Source: Thiothrix sp.
Lineage (GTDB): Bacteria; Pseudomonadota; Gammaproteobacteria; Thiotrichales; Thiotrichaceae
DNA length: 64,000 bases
Direction of reading: 5' to 3'
Assembly: GCF_028714775.1 (NCBI RefSeq)
Contig: NZ_JAQTLS010000005.1
Location: forward strand, 62,001-126,000
The notes beneath the pieces are model-generated. The model had not been told where the DNA came from. It did not search any database and saw only the letters and a program-made list of their open reading frames with translations. The position numbers and the translations under genes were made by a program. Shown here in pieces: positions 1,218-62,058 of the stretch (position 1 is the stretch's first letter; every line of letters starts with the position of its first letter).

Positions 1218-2417
1218 TCAATGACCTAGGGCAAGGCGAAAGCCCAAGTCGATGCCACGGTCATCAGGCTCGTTCCCGTAACGGTAGGCAGAACGCACGC
1301 CCCTGCCGTAGTAGAGCCACGAGCCGCCGCGAACGACGCGCAAAACGCCTGACTGTGAACCCTCCGGGTTCGTTACCGGCTCCGCCGGATAAGAACTGTA
1401 CCAATCCTGACACCATTCCCACACGTTACCGTGCATTTCGTACAGACCCCACGGATTCGCAGGAAGTGATTTGACCGAAACAGTTTTCCCAACATTGTCA
1501 TTGAAATTTACCTGCTGTGCCGTAATGTTATCACCAACAGAATAACGGGGCATTGTTCCTGCACGACAGGCATATTCCCACTGCGCTTCGGTTGGCAGTT
1601 TCGCCTTCAGGTCAGACGCTATACCATTCAGTGTACGGATAAAACCCTGTACATCATTCCAACTGACCGTTTCCACCGGATTGTTTGCGGTGTTCCTGAA
1701 AATGGAGCTGAAATGGGAAGGGTTGTTACCCATCACTGCCTTCCACAAAGCTTGGGTACAAGTGCTATCCGCCAACCAAAACCCTTGCGTCAACGTCACT
1801 TCATGCTGGATTTCATCACTTCCTCGCTCCTTTTCGGAGGCTGGCGACCCCATCAGGAACTTGCCCGGTTTGATCCAGCGGAAGCGTTGGATAACACCCT
1901 TCACATCCAGATCGGCATATCGCCCATAGCCATCCTCACCCATTACCTTTGCCCAAACGGGTTCTGCTTGCTTGGGCGCTGGGGATGGAGGAATGGGCGG
2001 TGACGGCTGGACTTTCGGCGGATCAGGCAGCGGGATGTGGATACGGATGGTATGCATCAACTTTTGCCAATCCACTTGCTGGGAAAAGTTCAAATGCTGC
2101 AAGGGGATCAACCATAATGGCAAATCGTCCAAGTTTTCCGCCAAAATTGGCACAATGGGAATATTCATCCGCTTCGCCATCTGGAACTCGGCGAACACCC
2201 ATTCAGAATGCTTGACCTTATTCGATACCACCAACACCACAAGCTGGCTGGCTTTCAATTGGCGCTCGATTTCCTTTACCCACTCCATCCCCGGCAGAAC
2301 ACCCGTCTCGTCACGGAACACAGTGAAGCCTTGCCCATGCAAATGCTGCTGCGCCTGTTTCGCGAGGCGTTGACCGTGGGATTGGTCTTGGGCGTAACTG
2401 ATGAAAATCTGCTGCAT
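1218..2417 (-). CDS. TIR domain protein with C-terminal FGE/C-type-lectin domain, probable diversified receptor
   Basis: Protein of 399 residues. Residues 1-125 form a TIR domain: FISYAQD at the start, then the S-x-W-x-x-x-E stretch SEWVFAEF, with Glu77 in the place of the catalytic glutamate of TIR NAD hydrolases. A proline-rich linker spans about 130-155. Residues 180-399 are a formylglycine-generating-enzyme type (FGE-sulfatase, C-type-lectin fold) domain, with [43 protein letters not shown] and RGGSW. The last ~35 codons resemble a retroelement variable region (see findings). No signal peptide, so cytoplasmic. Likely role: ligand sensing by the lectin-like half and NAD-consuming output by TIR; this is inferred from domain families. 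No sulfatase is nearby, so a true sulfatase-maturing role is unlikely. Confidence 0.9.
1233..1340 (-). other. Candidate DGR variable region (VR) at the 3' end of the TIR-FGE gene
   Basis: The codons after RGGSW read CTC TAC TAC GGC AGG GGC, then invariant-looking GTG CGT TCT GCC, then TAC CGT TAC, and later GAC CGT GGC ATC GAC before the TTG GGC TTT CGC CTT end. Eleven codons at the positions usually occupied by AAC in diversity-generating retroelement templates end in C, while the intervening fixed codons end in G or T as well as C. This is the pattern expected from adenine-specific mutagenesis of AAC codons. No reverse transcriptase or template repeat was seen in this window. Confidence 0.5.
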
Positions 2418-2504: not shown

Positions 2505-3506
2505 ATGAATAAACGTACTGAGTCTTCCTTCCTCCCCGCGTGGTGGCTGCGCTCGCCCCACCTGCAAACCTTGTGGCCTGTGTTTTTCCGCCGCCGCCCA
2601 CACTTGCCCTTGCAAGCCGAACGGGTGGAACTCGCCGATGGGGATTTCATTGATCTGGCGCACTACCCGCGCCCGGATTCCCCGCTGGTGCTGGTGATCC
2701 ACGGGTTGGAAGGTTCGGTGGATTCGCATTACGCCCAGACCTTGATGCAAGCGTTGCACGAAGAGGGGTTCGCCAGCGTTTTCATGCACCTGCGCGGACG
2801 CAGCCAAACCCCAAACCGCCTGCCGCGCAGCTACCATTCCGGTTTGACCAGCGACATCGCGGAAGTGCTTGCCCACCTGCAACAAAGCGGGCGGATGCCG
2901 GATGCAGCGGTCGGTTTTTCGCTCGGCGGCAACCTGATCCTGAAATATCTGGGGGAAACTGGCAAAGATTCGGGTTTGAAAACGGCAGTCGCGGTTTCCG
3001 TACCGTTCCAGTTGCAGGAATGCGCCCGCAAGCTCGAAAGCGGGTTTGCGCGGGTGTATGGGCTGCATCTGGTGAACCGCCTGAAACGCACCTACCGCGA
3101 CAAATTCAGCCGGATGCCAAGCCCGCTGACCGTTGATGTCAGCAAGCTGAAAACGCTGTTTGAATTCGACGACCGGATTACTGCCCCACTGAATGGCTTT
3201 GCCGACGCGGAAGATTACTACCGGCGCAGCAGTTCGGCACAATTCCTGCGTAGCATCCAGACCCCGACGCTGATTATCCACGCCAAGGATGACCCGTTCA
3301 TGCACCCGACCACCGCGCCGAGCGAAGACATGCTCAGCGACAGCGTAACGTTGGAACTCGCGGCACACGGCGGGCACGTTGGGTTTATCAGCGGTAGCTT
3401 ACCGTGGCAGGCAGAATACTGGCTGGAACCGCGCATTATCGCGTGGCTCCGCACCAACTTACCCCCTAAAACACCGCACACGAAGCAAAGGAACACACCA
3501 GCATGA
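2505..3506 (+). CDS. YheT family alpha/beta hydrolase
   Basis: Predicted cytoplasmic serine hydrolase of 333 residues, close to the usual ~320-340 of the YheT/UPF0017 family. The family N-terminus WWLRSPHLQTLWP is present. It is followed by the oxyanion segment VIHGLEGS, the nucleophile elbow GFSLGGN and a late histidine in AAHGGHVGF, which together form the catalytic triad region. The physiological substrate of the family is not settled; esterase activity is the usual assumption. The stop overlaps the start of the next small membrane-protein gene by ATGA, so the two are probably co-translated. Confidence 0.88.
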   Translation: MNKRTESSFLPAWWLRSPHLQTLWPVFFRRRPHLPLQAERVELADGDFIDLAHYPRPDSPLVLVIHGLEGSVDSHYAQTLMQALHEEGFASVFMHLRGRSQTPNRLPRSYHSGLTSDIAEVLAHLQQSGRMPDAAVGFSLGGNLILKYLGETGKDSGLKTAVAVSVPFQLQECARKLESGFARVYGLHLVNRLKRTYRDKFSRMPSPLTVDVSKLKTLFEFDDRITAPLNGFADAEDYYRRSSSAQFLRSIQTPTLIIHAKDDPFMHPTTAPSEDMLSDSVTLELAAHGGHVGFISGSLPWQAEYWLEPRIIAWLRTNLPPKTPHTKQRNTPA

Positions 3507-3694
3507 ATTTCCTCGCGGCTATTGCTGTAATGCTCGTTTTGATCGGCCTCACGACGCTGGTCATTGGTGGCATCCGCCACTTTTTCCCGTTCGTGGAGGC
3601 GTACATCCCCGACAGCTTCAAGCAACCGTTGTCGATCCGTTATGCTGCGTATTACTTGCTGGCGGGGCTGTTAATTTTGCTGATTTTGCCGTAG
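3503..3694 (+). CDS. Small two-helix membrane protein, unknown function
   Basis: Encodes 63 residues. Residues 3-24 (FLAAIAVMLVLIGLTTLVIG) and about 46-63 are hydrophobic and would form two membrane helices joined by a short polar loop containing an FVEAYIPDSFKQPL segment. The ATG lies inside the stop of the YheT gene (ATGA overlap), which supports a real, translationally coupled gene. I do not recognise a named family, and no functional residues are evident. Confidence 0.6.
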   Translation: MNFLAAIAVMLVLIGLTTLVIGGIRHFFPFVEAYIPDSFKQPLSIRYAAYYLLAGLLILLILP

Positions 3695-3705
3695 CAAGCC
3701 CTCTA

Positions 3706-4818
3706 TCAGTTCGGCAACCACTTATTCCGCAGGCTTTCGTGGATGCTGTCACTCACACCCTGCGTTTCACGCAATTTCAGCAAAGCGCGGTTGACAGGTT
3801 CCACCAAGGGGCTGTCGGGCGGGAATGCGATGCCGTAGCTTTGCGGGTTAAAACTGACCGGCAACACTGACACCTGTTGCTTCTCCGGCGCACTCTTGTT
3901 GTGCTGGTTTGCCAGATACACCAAGCGCGGGCCATCATGCACCAGCGCATCCACATCCTTGCTGATGACTTTTTGCATTCCTTCCGCCAAATCTTTGACC
4001 GGAACAATGTTCACGCCCATTTTCAGCAAGTAGTCCTTGGGGGCATCGGTCGCCACCACCGCCACGCGCTTGTCGAGCAGGTCTTTAGGACTTTGGATGC
4101 TGCTGTCGATATTCTGCGCGGTCAACGCGGCGGTGATCACGGAACTTAAGATGCCCAAATACAAGAATCCCATCAGGAACCACCCCAAATCCACTAACCG
4201 CGCCAAACCCCGGCGTGGCGGCGTATCCCACGTAGTAAACATGGTCAGCGCCCACCACAGTGCTTCATTGATGCCGGAACGGTAATCTTCCGGGAAAGTG
4301 GGTTCGCCACCGCTGAAACGCCGGTCAACCAACCAGCGGACATGGGCGAAAACGACCACCAGCAATGTCACCGCCAACAACACTTGCCACGTAAACAGCT
4401 TGCCGATCTCTTGGATAGCCACTAACCACGGATTGGGGCGCGTATCCGCCGGAACCATGATTTGCAAACCCAATTCATACATGGAGTTGGAAAAATCCAC
4501 CTGCTGTTCGCGGGCATTGGTCACGGTGATGGCAGAAATCCCAGCATTAACCTTACTTTCTTGGGTAGCTTGGATCAGCTCCGGCACGGTATCGAAATAC
4601 ACCCACTGGGTCTTCGCGCCCATTTCAGCAGCAATGGCATTCCACAAATCAATGCTGAAACCACGCGGCTGGCGCTGTTCTGGCGGCAGTTTAGCGTCGA
4701 ACATCACCCACGGTTCGGAAAGTTTGACCCCCACTTTCAAGGTCTCTTCGGCGAACACATTACCCGCTGCAAAAAACACCAGCAACAACAAGCCGCTGAT
4801 TACATGCCATAGCCTCAT
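3706..4818 (-). CDS. Periplasmic-binding-fold protein with an ion-channel-like insert (GluR0-type)
   Basis: Protein of 370 residues with a signal peptide (about 1-23) and a solute-binding family 3 fold split in two. Lobe 1 covers 25-130 (LKVGVKLSEPWVMF, GFSIDLWNAIA, SAITVTNAREQQVDFS). Lobe 2 covers 240-370 (SPKDLLDKRVAVV, YGIAFPPDSPLVEPVN). Between them lie a membrane helix (~143-163), a re-entrant pore-like segment (~185-202, ALWWALTMFTTWDTPP) and a second helix (~207-233). This is the architecture of prokaryotic ionotropic glutamate receptors. The potassium-filter signature TVGYG of GluR0 is replaced by TTWDT. Probable role: ligand-gated channel or membrane-tethered sensor for an amino-acid-like ligand. 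It converges on the YheT/small-protein pair with a 12-base gap. Confidence 0.82.
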   Translation of the reverse strand: MRLWHVISGLLLLVFFAAGNVFAEETLKVGVKLSEPWVMFDAKLPPEQRQPRGFSIDLWNAIAAEMGAKTQWVYFDTVPELIQATQESKVNAGISAITVTNAREQQVDFSNSMYELGLQIMVPADTRPNPWLVAIQEIGKLFTWQVLLAVTLLVVVFAHVRWLVDRRFSGGEPTFPEDYRSGINEALWWALTMFTTWDTPPRRGLARLVDLGWFLMGFLYLGILSSVITAALTAQNIDSSIQSPKDLLDKRVAVVATDAPKDYLLKMGVNIVPVKDLAEGMQKVISKDVDALVHDGPRLVYLANQHNKSAPEKQQVSVLPVSFNPQSYGIAFPPDSPLVEPVNRALLKLRETQGVSDSIHESLRNKWLPN

Positions 4819-4954
4819 AAAACTCCCTCTCGCTAGCCGGATTTATCACCCTGCGCAGGGGAAATCCGAATGGTTAAAATTATTGCCTGAACAGTACTGG
4901 CCTCGCCCCCGCAGTATCCCGCAAATTTCTGCCGCAGTCTGCTACCATCCGCGC

Positions 4955-6697
4955 ATGGACATTATCTTTCGTGAATACGGGTCAATCATCCGTCAAAAGT
5001 GGGGCTGGTTTCTAGTCGTGATGCTGGGCATCAGCGGCGGCGTGGGGCTGGATGCCGCCGTACCGCTGTTTTATAAGGATATTGCCAATGGGCTAGCGCT
5101 GCCCTATTCCCCCACGACGTTGGCAATGTTATTGCAAAGTTTAGGGTATATCGGGCTGATGTACGTCGGCATCTGGTTGAGTTGGCGGGCGTTGGAACTG
5201 GGCATGATCATGTTCCAAAGCTGGGGCTTAAACCTGCTCGACAAGCGTTGTTTCGAGGTGCTGGTGCGCCAGCGTTACCACTTTTTCGAGAACAACTTTG
5301 CGGGCAGTTTGGTTAAGCAGGCCAACCGTTTCATCAAAGCGTTTGAAACCATTATCGACTGGCTGATTTTCCAGTTTTTCGGCAATTTGCTGCTGATCAC
5401 GGTGGCTTTCGTCATTTTCTACCAGCAACAACCGCGCTTTGCGGTGTATTTCCTGATTTGGGTCGCCATTTTCATGGGCTGGAGCGCGGGCTATTTGGTG
5501 TGGAAGCTGAAATTCGACACACGGGTAGCGGAACTGGACTCCAAACTCGGCGGGGCGTATTCCGACGGCATTGCCAATATTTCCATCGTCAAAAGTTTCG
5601 CACTAGAACAGCAGGAACGCCGCAATATCAGCGACATTGCCGATGAATCCTACCGCAGGCGCAATATCGCGTGGCTGCTGATGTTCGTTTCGTTTGCGGT
5701 GCAAGGCGTGCTGGTGTTCGGGATTGAATTGCTGCTGGTGTACTTGATGATCCGCAAATGGGCAGCAGGTAACTTCGAGATCGGGGAATTCGTGCTGTTC
5801 CAGACCATTTTGATGCTGCTGATCCGGCATTTGTGGGATTTTGGGCGCGATTTCCGACGTTTTTTCACGGTATTGGCGGATGCGCGGGAAATGGCAGATG
5901 TGTTCCGCCAAGCCGACATCGAACAGGACAAGCCGGGTACACAAGCGCACACGATTACCCACGGCGACATCCAATTCGAGGACATCGGGTTTGCTTACGG
6001 TGGTGCGGGCTTGTTCCGTGATTTCAACTTGCACATCAAGGCGGGGGAAAAGGTGGCGCTGGTCGGGCATTCCGGCTCGGGCAAAACGTCACTCACCAAG
6101 TTGCTGTTCCGCTTCGTTGACCCGCAGCAAGGCCATATCCGCTTTGACGGGGTGGATGCGCAAGATTTTACCCTGACCGCGCTGCGTTCGCAGATTTCGC
6201 TCGTGCCACAACAACCGGAACTGTTTCACCGCAGCATCCGTGACAATATTGTGCTGGGCAAGGAAATCCCTCTCGAACAACTGCGCGACGTGGCACGCAA
6301 AGCGCGGGCGCTGGACTTCATCGACAAGCTGCCGCAAGGCTTTGACACGCTGGTGGGCGAACGTGGGGTGAAACTTTCCGGCGGGGAAAAACAGCGCGTG
6401 GCGATTGCACGGGCATTCCTCGAAGACGCGCCGATTGTAGTGCTGGATGAAGCTACCAGTGCTTTGGATTCACTCACCGAGCAGCAAATCCAAGTAGCCA
6501 TTTTCGACCTGATCGAACACAAAACCGCGATTGTGATTGCCCACCGGCTGGCAACCATCCTGCGTATGGATCGGATCGTGGTGCTAGAAAACGGACAGAT
6601 TATCGAGCAAGGCACGCACGCAGAACTGCTGGCGCTGCGCGGGCGCTACCATGAAATGTGGCAGCACCAGAGCGGCGAATTTTTGCAGGTGGATTAG
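4955..6697 (+). CDS. ABC transporter, fused permease and ATPase (MsbA/ATM1-like exporter)
   Basis: Half-transporter of 580 residues from the ATG at 4955. A much longer open frame runs upstream, but it lies antisense to the receptor gene, and MDIIFREYGSIIRQKWGWF is a normal start. Residues ~15-310 hold about six membrane helices. The nucleotide-binding domain follows, with Walker A GHSGSGKT, Q-loop LVPQQPELF, signature LSGGEKQR, Walker B IVVLDEATSALD and the H-loop AHRL. It acts as a homodimer in the inner membrane; the substrate cannot be told from sequence. The stop codon overlaps the convergent sensor-kinase gene by 4 bases. Confidence 0.9.
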   Translation: MDIIFREYGSIIRQKWGWFLVVMLGISGGVGLDAAVPLFYKDIANGLALPYSPTTLAMLLQSLGYIGLMYVGIWLSWRALELGMIMFQSWGLNLLDKRCFEVLVRQRYHFFENNFAGSLVKQANRFIKAFETIIDWLIFQFFGNLLLITVAFVIFYQQQPRFAVYFLIWVAIFMGWSAGYLVWKLKFDTRVAELDSKLGGAYSDGIANISIVKSFALEQQERRNISDIADESYRRRNIAWLLMFVSFAVQGVLVFGIELLLVYLMIRKWAAGNFEIGEFVLFQTILMLLIRHLWDFGRDFRRFFTVLADAREMADVFRQADIEQDKPGTQAHTITHGDIQFEDIGFAYGGAGLFRDFNLHIKAGEKVALVGHSGSGKTSLTKLLFRFVDPQQGHIRFDGVDAQDFTLTALRSQISLVPQQPELFHRSIRDNIVLGKEIPLEQLRDVARKARALDFIDKLPQGFDTLVGERGVKLSGGEKQRVAIARAFLEDAPIVVLDEATSALDSLTEQQIQVAIFDLIEHKTAIVIAHRLATILRMDRIVVLENGQIIEQGTHAELLALRGRYHEMWQHQSGEFLQVD

Positions 6698-10973: not shown

Positions 10974-11483
10974 ATGAAAAGACTGGAAAACAATTTCGAG
11001 CATTTCTTATTCACTAGCCGCTGGCTGATCGCGCCGGTCTATCTGGCCTTGGTCGTTGCCCTGCTGGTGTTGCTGGTCAAAACCGCCAAACAGTTGTGGG
11101 TACTGGTCAGTACCGTGATGACCGCTGACGGCAACGAAATCATTGTCGGGGTACTTTCCATCGTCGACATTTCCCTGATCATGAACTTGCTGATCATCAT
11201 CATTTTCAGCGGCTATGAAAACTTCGTCTCCAAAATGGAAGACCTGCACGGACACGCTGACCGCCCGGATTGGATGGGGCATATCGGCTTTACCGACCTG
11301 AAACTGAAACTGATTGGTTCCATCGTTGCTATTTCTGGGATTGAGCTGCTCAAGGCATTCATGGCGGTGGATACGTATAGCGACCGCCACATGGGTTGGA
11401 TGTTGGGCATCCACCTGACGTTTGTGGTGTCGGGCGTGTTGTATGCGTTGATGGATAAACTCAGCCACCACGATTCGCAGTAA
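10974..11483 (+). CDS. yqhA: YqhA family (UPF0114) inner-membrane protein
   Basis: Protein of 169 residues from the ATG at 10974; an in-frame TTG at 10959 is a weaker alternative. It begins like the E. coli protein, with a short cytoplasmic ENNFEHFLFTSRWLIAPVY. It has about four hydrophobic helices, including the conserved IMNLLIIIIFSGYENFVS and the later KLIGSIVAISGIELLKAFM and HLTFVVSGVLYALMDKL. Length matches the family (~165). The function of UPF0114 is not established. Confidence 0.88.
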   Translation: MKRLENNFEHFLFTSRWLIAPVYLALVVALLVLLVKTAKQLWVLVSTVMTADGNEIIVGVLSIVDISLIMNLLIIIIFSGYENFVSKMEDLHGHADRPDWMGHIGFTDLKLKLIGSIVAISGIELLKAFMAVDTYSDRHMGWMLGIHLTFVVSGVLYALMDKLSHHDSQ

Positions 11484-11597
11484 AGTCGCAGCATACGCTA
11501 CCCGGCAGCCTGCGTATCGCCACCTATCCTGTCAGCACAACCAGTTTCGCCTGAGCCACGTATACTTAAGGCTAATACACACGGATTGGGTCATACC

Positions 11598-61644: not shown

Positions 61645-62058
61645 CTACTCAGCATCCTTCAGCAAATCCACGTAAGACTGCAATTCCAGCGCCCGCGCTT
61701 TCACCACATCCACCCGTTTGGCGATCATCACCGGAATCCACATTGTGCCATCCAGTTGCGCGTGGATCGCATTGATCAGGTCAAATTCCTTGTCGCGCTG
61801 CGCTATCCACTCGCGTTGCGCCTGTTTCAAGGCATCTTGGCCTTTCGGCTTGAGCTGGCCTTGCAGTGCTTTGTACACGCGGTTGAGTTCGTTATCCCAT
61901 TCCTGCTCGGCACGGGTGTAACACTCCACCATGCCGGAGGTGGAAGGGTTCTTGTCGGTGCAAGCCTCTGCGGTCAAGTCGATGACGTGCTGTTTTTCTT
62001 TGGCATGGACATTAACCGCCAGCATCAAGGCAATAAGGGCAAACATTAGACGACGCAT
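61645..62058 (-). CDS. LprI/DUF1311 family periplasmic protein
   Basis: Protein of 137 residues from the ATG at 62058, preceded by GGAG. Signal peptide MRRLMFALIALMLAVNVHA. The mature part has the family pattern with a cysteine pair (EACTDKNPSTSGMVECYTRA), then EWDNELNRVYKALQGQL and ALKQAQREWIAQRD. DUF1311/LprI proteins include lysozyme inhibitors; inhibition of lysozyme here is inference. Convergent with vapC. Confidence 0.82.
   Translation of the reverse strand: MRRLMFALIALMLAVNVHAKEKQHVIDLTAEACTDKNPSTSGMVECYTRAEQEWDNELNRVYKALQGQLKPKGQDALKQAQREWIAQRDKEFDLINAIHAQLDGTMWIPVMIAKRVDVVKARALELQSYVDLLKDAE

Follow-up and report, generated by a model that had tools for sequence, protein, structure and literature searches.

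A Thiothrix gene for a putative TIR effector with a lectin domain probably written in trans by a diversity-generating retroelement

Positions 62001–126000 of contig C5 in a Thiothrix sp. genome (G000), a stretch of 64,000 nucleotides called the window below, contain a solitary gene flanked by housekeeping genes. Its product joins a TIR domain directly to a domain of the FGE/C-type-lectin kind, and its C-terminal end had been predicted to be the target of a diversity-generating retroelement (DGR). The questions raised by this locus are whether its variable repeat (VR) was written by a DGR situated elsewhere in the genome, and whether it is still being rewritten.

The arrangement of TIR domain, FGE domain and C-terminal motif in the original prediction was borne out by the open reading frame and by Pfam, and the eleven C-ending codons quoted from the C-terminal end were all found (11/11). 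The N terminus matches Pfam TIR_2 with an E value of 9e-18, and is also matched by PADLOC and Pfam TIR/ThsB models. In a multiple alignment the Glu77 motif is unchanged in 8/8 TIR-FGE homologues; this residue is the putative TIR glutamate, whose role we take to be catalytic, as in TIR NADases. No signal peptide was seen by eye, and the protein is presumed to be cytosolic. The VR lies at the 3′ end of the gene, in the FGE domain. Among solved sequences the nearest belongs to a DGR variable protein of Treponema denticola; the C-terminal variable segments of the two proteins align, and we infer a C-type-lectin fold for the C terminus of the window protein. The structure predicted for the full-length protein from an alignment of eight sequences was of poor quality (mean pLDDT 57, below 50 in the lectin C terminus) and was set aside. 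Coordinates are collected in Table 1.

Table 1. Coordinates of the window gene, its variable repeat and hairpin, and of the template and accessory gene on contig C31
Feature	Position	Strand	Basis
TIR-FGE gene, 399 aa, probable remote DGR target	1218..2417	-	ORF; Pfam; syntenic orthologues in G015 and G006
TIR domain, residues 4-116	2070..2408	-	Pfam TIR_2
Putative catalytic Glu77, motif SEWVFAE	about 2187-2189	-	invariant in 8 homologues
FGE/C-type-lectin domain, residues 181-396	1230..1877	-	Pfam FGE-sulfatase; best solved match 2y3c
VR, homologous to DGR template	1221..1351	-	alignments to templates
Variable codons of window VR	1245-1316	-	alignments to templates
3′ constant part of VR, initiation-of-homing-like	1221-1244	-	alignments to templates
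Cis hairpin, 16 bases, 5-bp stem and GGA loop, 15 bases past stop codon	1188..1203	-	motif search; fold
C31 non-coding template repeat	11335-11486	-	DNA search, alignment
HRDC-domain accessory protein gene beside C31 RT and template	L040 12193-12690		Pfam

The Pfam FGE-sulfatase match, together with the occurrence of FGE enzymes among the solved relatives, might suggest that a TIR domain has been joined to a functional formylglycine-generating (sulfatase-maturing) enzyme. True FGEs have two catalytic cysteines in the C-terminal segment. The window protein has no cysteine after residue 336, so the C-terminal catalytic pair is missing, and its nearest solved relative is a DGR variable protein rather than an enzyme. 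An enzymatic role is hardly credible.

The source assembly consists of 4.30 Mb in 70 contigs, with a completeness of 100. A DNA search of the whole genome with the window repeat gave, besides the repeat itself, three strong matches on contig C31 and one on C3. On its minus strand C31 carries a DGR cassette comprising a 1049-aa FGE target with a VR, an HRDC accessory gene, a reverse transcriptase (RT) gene, a template, and a 274-aa FGE target with a VR. Genes for an AAA/MoxR-like ATPase, a trypsin-like protein (just under the Pfam cut-off) and a Trypco2 protein lie upstream. A DGR RT and a template repeat had been suggested as the things to look for in the complete genome, and this search succeeded in part: a homologous template stands beside a DGR RT gene, but the template is of a different class and the RT is without its catalytic core, as described below.

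In an alignment with the C31 template, 12/25 adenines and 14/83 non-adenine bases are mismatched in the window VR (p=0.0025). The derivation of the C-ending codons from AAC, as originally proposed, stands for eight of the eleven (CTC, TAC, TAC, GGC, TAC, GGC, ATC and GAC), which fall on AAC codons of the templates found. It does not stand for codon 9 (GGC), which is a fixed GGC in the templates, and for codons 16 and 24 it depends on the template: codon 16 (TAC) corresponds to TAC on C31 and to ATC in the template of a sister species, G007, and codon 24 (GAC) to GAC and AAC, respectively. Codons with mutable adenines extend beyond these eleven to two AGG codons, codon 10, which is unchanged, and codon 19, which has become GGG; AAC codon 20 of the window VR, also absent from the first list, is unmutated. 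The interval 1218–1340 given at first holds all the variable codons, but homology to the template runs from about 1221 to 1351 and the hairpin falls outside.

Ordinary divergence of FGE paralogues could produce a similar picture, with the C-ending codons reflecting codon usage and the variability of the loop reflecting relaxed constraint. Paralogues that are not DGR targets also mismatch somewhat more at template adenines (48–68%) than at non-A positions (31–46%), and for some of them p=0.007–0.01. Since the value obtained for the window VR with the template of its own genome is near these, the case for it rests on the sister genomes and on the hairpin.

Sister species were compared with one genome per species. 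One of these genomes, G012, is matched at 100% over 2301 bases by Thiothrix caldifontis DSM 21228, which places the source genome, as a member of the same genus, in Thiothrix, a group of filamentous sulfur bacteria. In G007, an intact RT and a template are on contig C5 and the TIR-FGE gene is on C6; the encoded protein is 58% identical to the window protein in a multiple alignment, and the two genes are not syntenic within the region examined. Of the positions in the G007 template, 17/27 adenines and 2/81 non-adenines are mismatched in the VR of this gene (p=4e-11). One of the two non-A mismatches is a C-to-G change, AGCTC to AGGTC, by which every VR inspected departs from the templates. The genome of G015 is a single contig on which the TIR-FGE gene is 457 kb from two DGR-locus VRs. 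Its VR differs from these at 17 and 12 sites, all of the adenine type (17/17 and 12/12), as are the 12 differences between the two DGR-locus VRs (12/12). The location of the G007 VR on another contig and the distance of 457 kb in G015, combined with differences restricted to adenines, indicate a remote (trans) DGR target.

The TIR-FGE genes of G015 and G006 have the same flanking pair as the window gene, a hydrolase gene and hisC. Between the window VR and its syntenic G015 orthologue, the amino acid differs at 14/14 adenine codons and at 2/21 other VR codons; in the DNA, 25/29 adenine-type sites differ vs. 5/76 others (p about 3e-15). Outside the VR, 43/178 residues differ in the upstream part of the FGE domain and 35/119 in the TIR domain. 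The VR of the G006 gene matched none of the templates found. A TIR-FGE homologue is also present in Leucothrix pacifica, where a pattern search recognised no template near the RT.

The second line of evidence is the hairpin behind the window gene, GGGCGGCGGAGCCGCA. With at most one mismatch allowed, it occurs at four sites in the 4.3-Mb source genome, each just 3′ of a VR: those of the window gene, of a TIR-FGE gene on C3 and of both C31 targets. The same search of the whole genome found no copy behind the C31 template. In 16 Thiothrix genomes, coordinate comparison places 22/26 sites immediately 3′ of a VR or of a repeat resembling one; these include the sites behind the TIR-FGE genes of G007 and G015. 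As a control, the reversed pattern gave no sites in the source genome and two in the other fifteen. Four hairpin sites have no recognised VR (G014:C32:55974, G013:C4:1465298, G003:C1:314362 and G006:C9:15988); they may be further remote targets or may have arisen by chance. In the Bordetella phage DGR a hairpin is likewise located downstream of the target, and the position of the window hairpin resembles it.

Divergence of ordinary paralogues is largely refuted by these observations, and its probability is now slight: non-A positions are nearly invariant when the class of template is matched (2/81 differing in G007, none among the G015 VRs), the template is a non-coding repeat adjacent to an RT gene, and the hairpin goes specifically with VRs. 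A shuffling of the variable segment without an RT, through gene conversion among FGE paralogues, would be permitted by the several homologous VRs per genome, but such conversion copies variants that already exist. It does not generate novel residues restricted to adenines of the template, and it needs neither a template nor a VR-specific hairpin; this rival is very improbable. That the window VR was a DGR target in the past appears almost certain. The proposal of a TIR effector joined to a DGR-diversified lectin domain is thus backed by the presence of a template repeat and of a cis hairpin, and by variation restricted to adenines, both in sister species and against the syntenic orthologue, and the writing of the lectin domain by a DGR acting in trans is, from these comparisons, highly probable.

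What wrote the window VR last is a separate matter. Its non-A mismatches with the C31 template cluster in two places. One is codon 12, where the window VR and the G007 template share GTG; the other is codons 29–35, of which 33–35 (CTTGCCCTA) are identical to the G007 template. Two VRs of G003 are of the same class as the window VR, which differs from them at 16 and 15 sites, 14 and 12 of these being of the adenine type. By these alignments the window VR is assigned to a template class other than that of the current C31 template, and the last writer was therefore most likely a template undetected in the source genome.

The RT encoded on C31 lacks 97 residues relative to the 335-aa RT of G007. 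The deletion is in frame and includes the segments GLPIGSLTSQ and YMDD, and the protein, as read from its gene, is without a catalytic core. A search of the source genome with PF00078 revealed three other RTs, which were set aside as donors on a reading of their sequences without a classifier. The RT on C45 resembles the protein of a group II intron, that on C6 adjoins a Cas1-like gene, and that on C4 has 636 aa and relatives across the genus. Neither the PF00078 profile nor similarity to the C31 RT revealed a second DGR-type RT in the source genome, and no intact error-prone RT, the mark of an active DGR, was found in the searches of this genome.

Contig C14 contains a further pair. A 949-aa TIR-nSTAND1-FGE protein is encoded at 2791–5640, with a template at about 5845–5966 just downstream (L134, G000:C14:72000-86000). 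The VR and this template match at 82/82 non-adenine bases, and 11/26 adenines are changed. No RT was found on C14 that could have written this pair.

The same remote target might still be diversifying in this strain, if the assembly failed to capture an intact RT and a template that fits, or if the deletion in the C31 RT is an assembly error. The division of the assembly into 70 contigs would allow this, and the C14 pair suggests recent RT activity from somewhere. However, the completeness is 100, the deletion is clean with the contig ends distant, no second DGR-type RT turned up, and the window VR departs from the C31 template both at codon 12 and over codons 29–35. Continued diversification is therefore considered unlikely. 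The present hypermutability that had been ascribed to the gene is not supported, given the same disagreement with the C31 template and the loss of the core from the sole DGR-type RT found. We favor past mutagenic retrohoming in trans, which would have written the window VR from a template of slightly different class; given the defective C31 RT, the failure to find another of the DGR type, and the mismatch in template class, the VR is probably now frozen in this strain.

In the mechanism proposed, the VR would form the ligand-facing loop of the lectin domain, and the diversified surface would bind a ligand. Binding could lead to oligomerisation of the TIR domain and to NAD+ cleavage or a nucleotide signal, as with other bacterial TIR defence proteins. 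The infected cell would then stop, through death or dormancy, and the filament would be protected. By analogy with those proteins, a role as a TIR sensor-effector is somewhat favoured, and the protein may function in immunity or self-recognition. Thoeris ThsB and other bacterial TIR defence proteins likewise have a TIR domain with a conserved Glu motif; none of them, as far as is known, uses a lectin surface diversified by a DGR as its sensor.

TvpA of Treponema denticola (2y3c) also has a lectin fold of the FGE type and a C-terminal VR, but it has no TIR domain. It is a lipoprotein-type surface protein, unlike the window protein with its TIR domain and presumed cytosolic location. The gene layout of the C31 cassette resembles that of clade 5A DGRs, described in multicellular bacteria (Dore et al., 2024; PMC10907252); the likeness is one of layout. 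In Thiohalocapsa sp., the same work describes FGE-type C-type-lectin targets, some of them with TIR domains, and an HRDC/RT/template cassette that adjoins genes for a MoxR-like ATPase and for proteins of the trypsin-like and Trypco kinds. It also describes candidates for remote targets, with diversification in trans, and degenerate loci that lack an RT. All of these have counterparts here. The TIR targets named there also bear CHAT or STAND domains, whereas the window TIR is joined directly to the lectin. The solitary position of the window gene and the loss of the core from the C31 RT are further differences. The text of PMC10907252 that was searched does not mention Thiothrix, and a literature search for Thiothrix together with diversity-generating found no paper. 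TIR-like domains among the N-terminal partners of the variable lectin domain, and the commonness of remote variable proteins, were reported in 2020 (PMC7517822) for a different phylum; remote status was assigned there by 50% identity to a template or target, and here by a hairpin unique in the genome to VRs. Links of FGE and DGRs to conflict systems have also been described (PMC7159879). Precedents therefore exist for TIR-bearing DGR targets, for remote targets and for degenerate RTs (PMC10907252, PMC7517822). The present locus adds a receptor pared down to two domains, an unusually clean case of trans targeting within the genus, and a hairpin tag with which remote DGR targets can be sought genus-wide. 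It bears on what DGR-diversified proteins do inside cellular bacteria. Because the protein is small, apparently soluble and composed of one effector and one diversified domain, binding, TIR activation and phage protection could be assayed with a single gene, and the intact RT of G007 makes trans retrohoming across the chromosome testable.

A second stand-alone TIR-FGE gene of the source genome, on C3 (L041 3203-4546), also carries the hairpin, behind a VR whose template class is that of C31. Relative to the C31 template this VR is mismatched at 12/25 adenines and at 4/83 non-adenine bases, and the gene is likewise a remote DGR target.

Elsewhere in the genus, MoxR-linked loci that hold two FGE targets and their hairpins, but neither an RT nor an accessory gene nor a template, are present in G015, G003, G012 and G005 (L138, L176, L177 and L178). 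Genome searches found no DGR-type RT anywhere in G005, G012 or G015. DGR machinery thus appears to have been lost recurrently in Thiothrix. One tentative and rather doubtful explanation is that a DGR diversifies scattered lectin receptors, with TIR or other domains, and that the RT, often with the template, is then repeatedly lost under selection; if so, each lineage would fix a private receptor repertoire. The paired VRs without an RT in G003, G005, G012 and G015 and the core deletion in the C31 RT fit this scheme, and neutral decay fits them too. G003 has two truncated DGR-type RT genes (L264 and L265) and one longer RT of another type.
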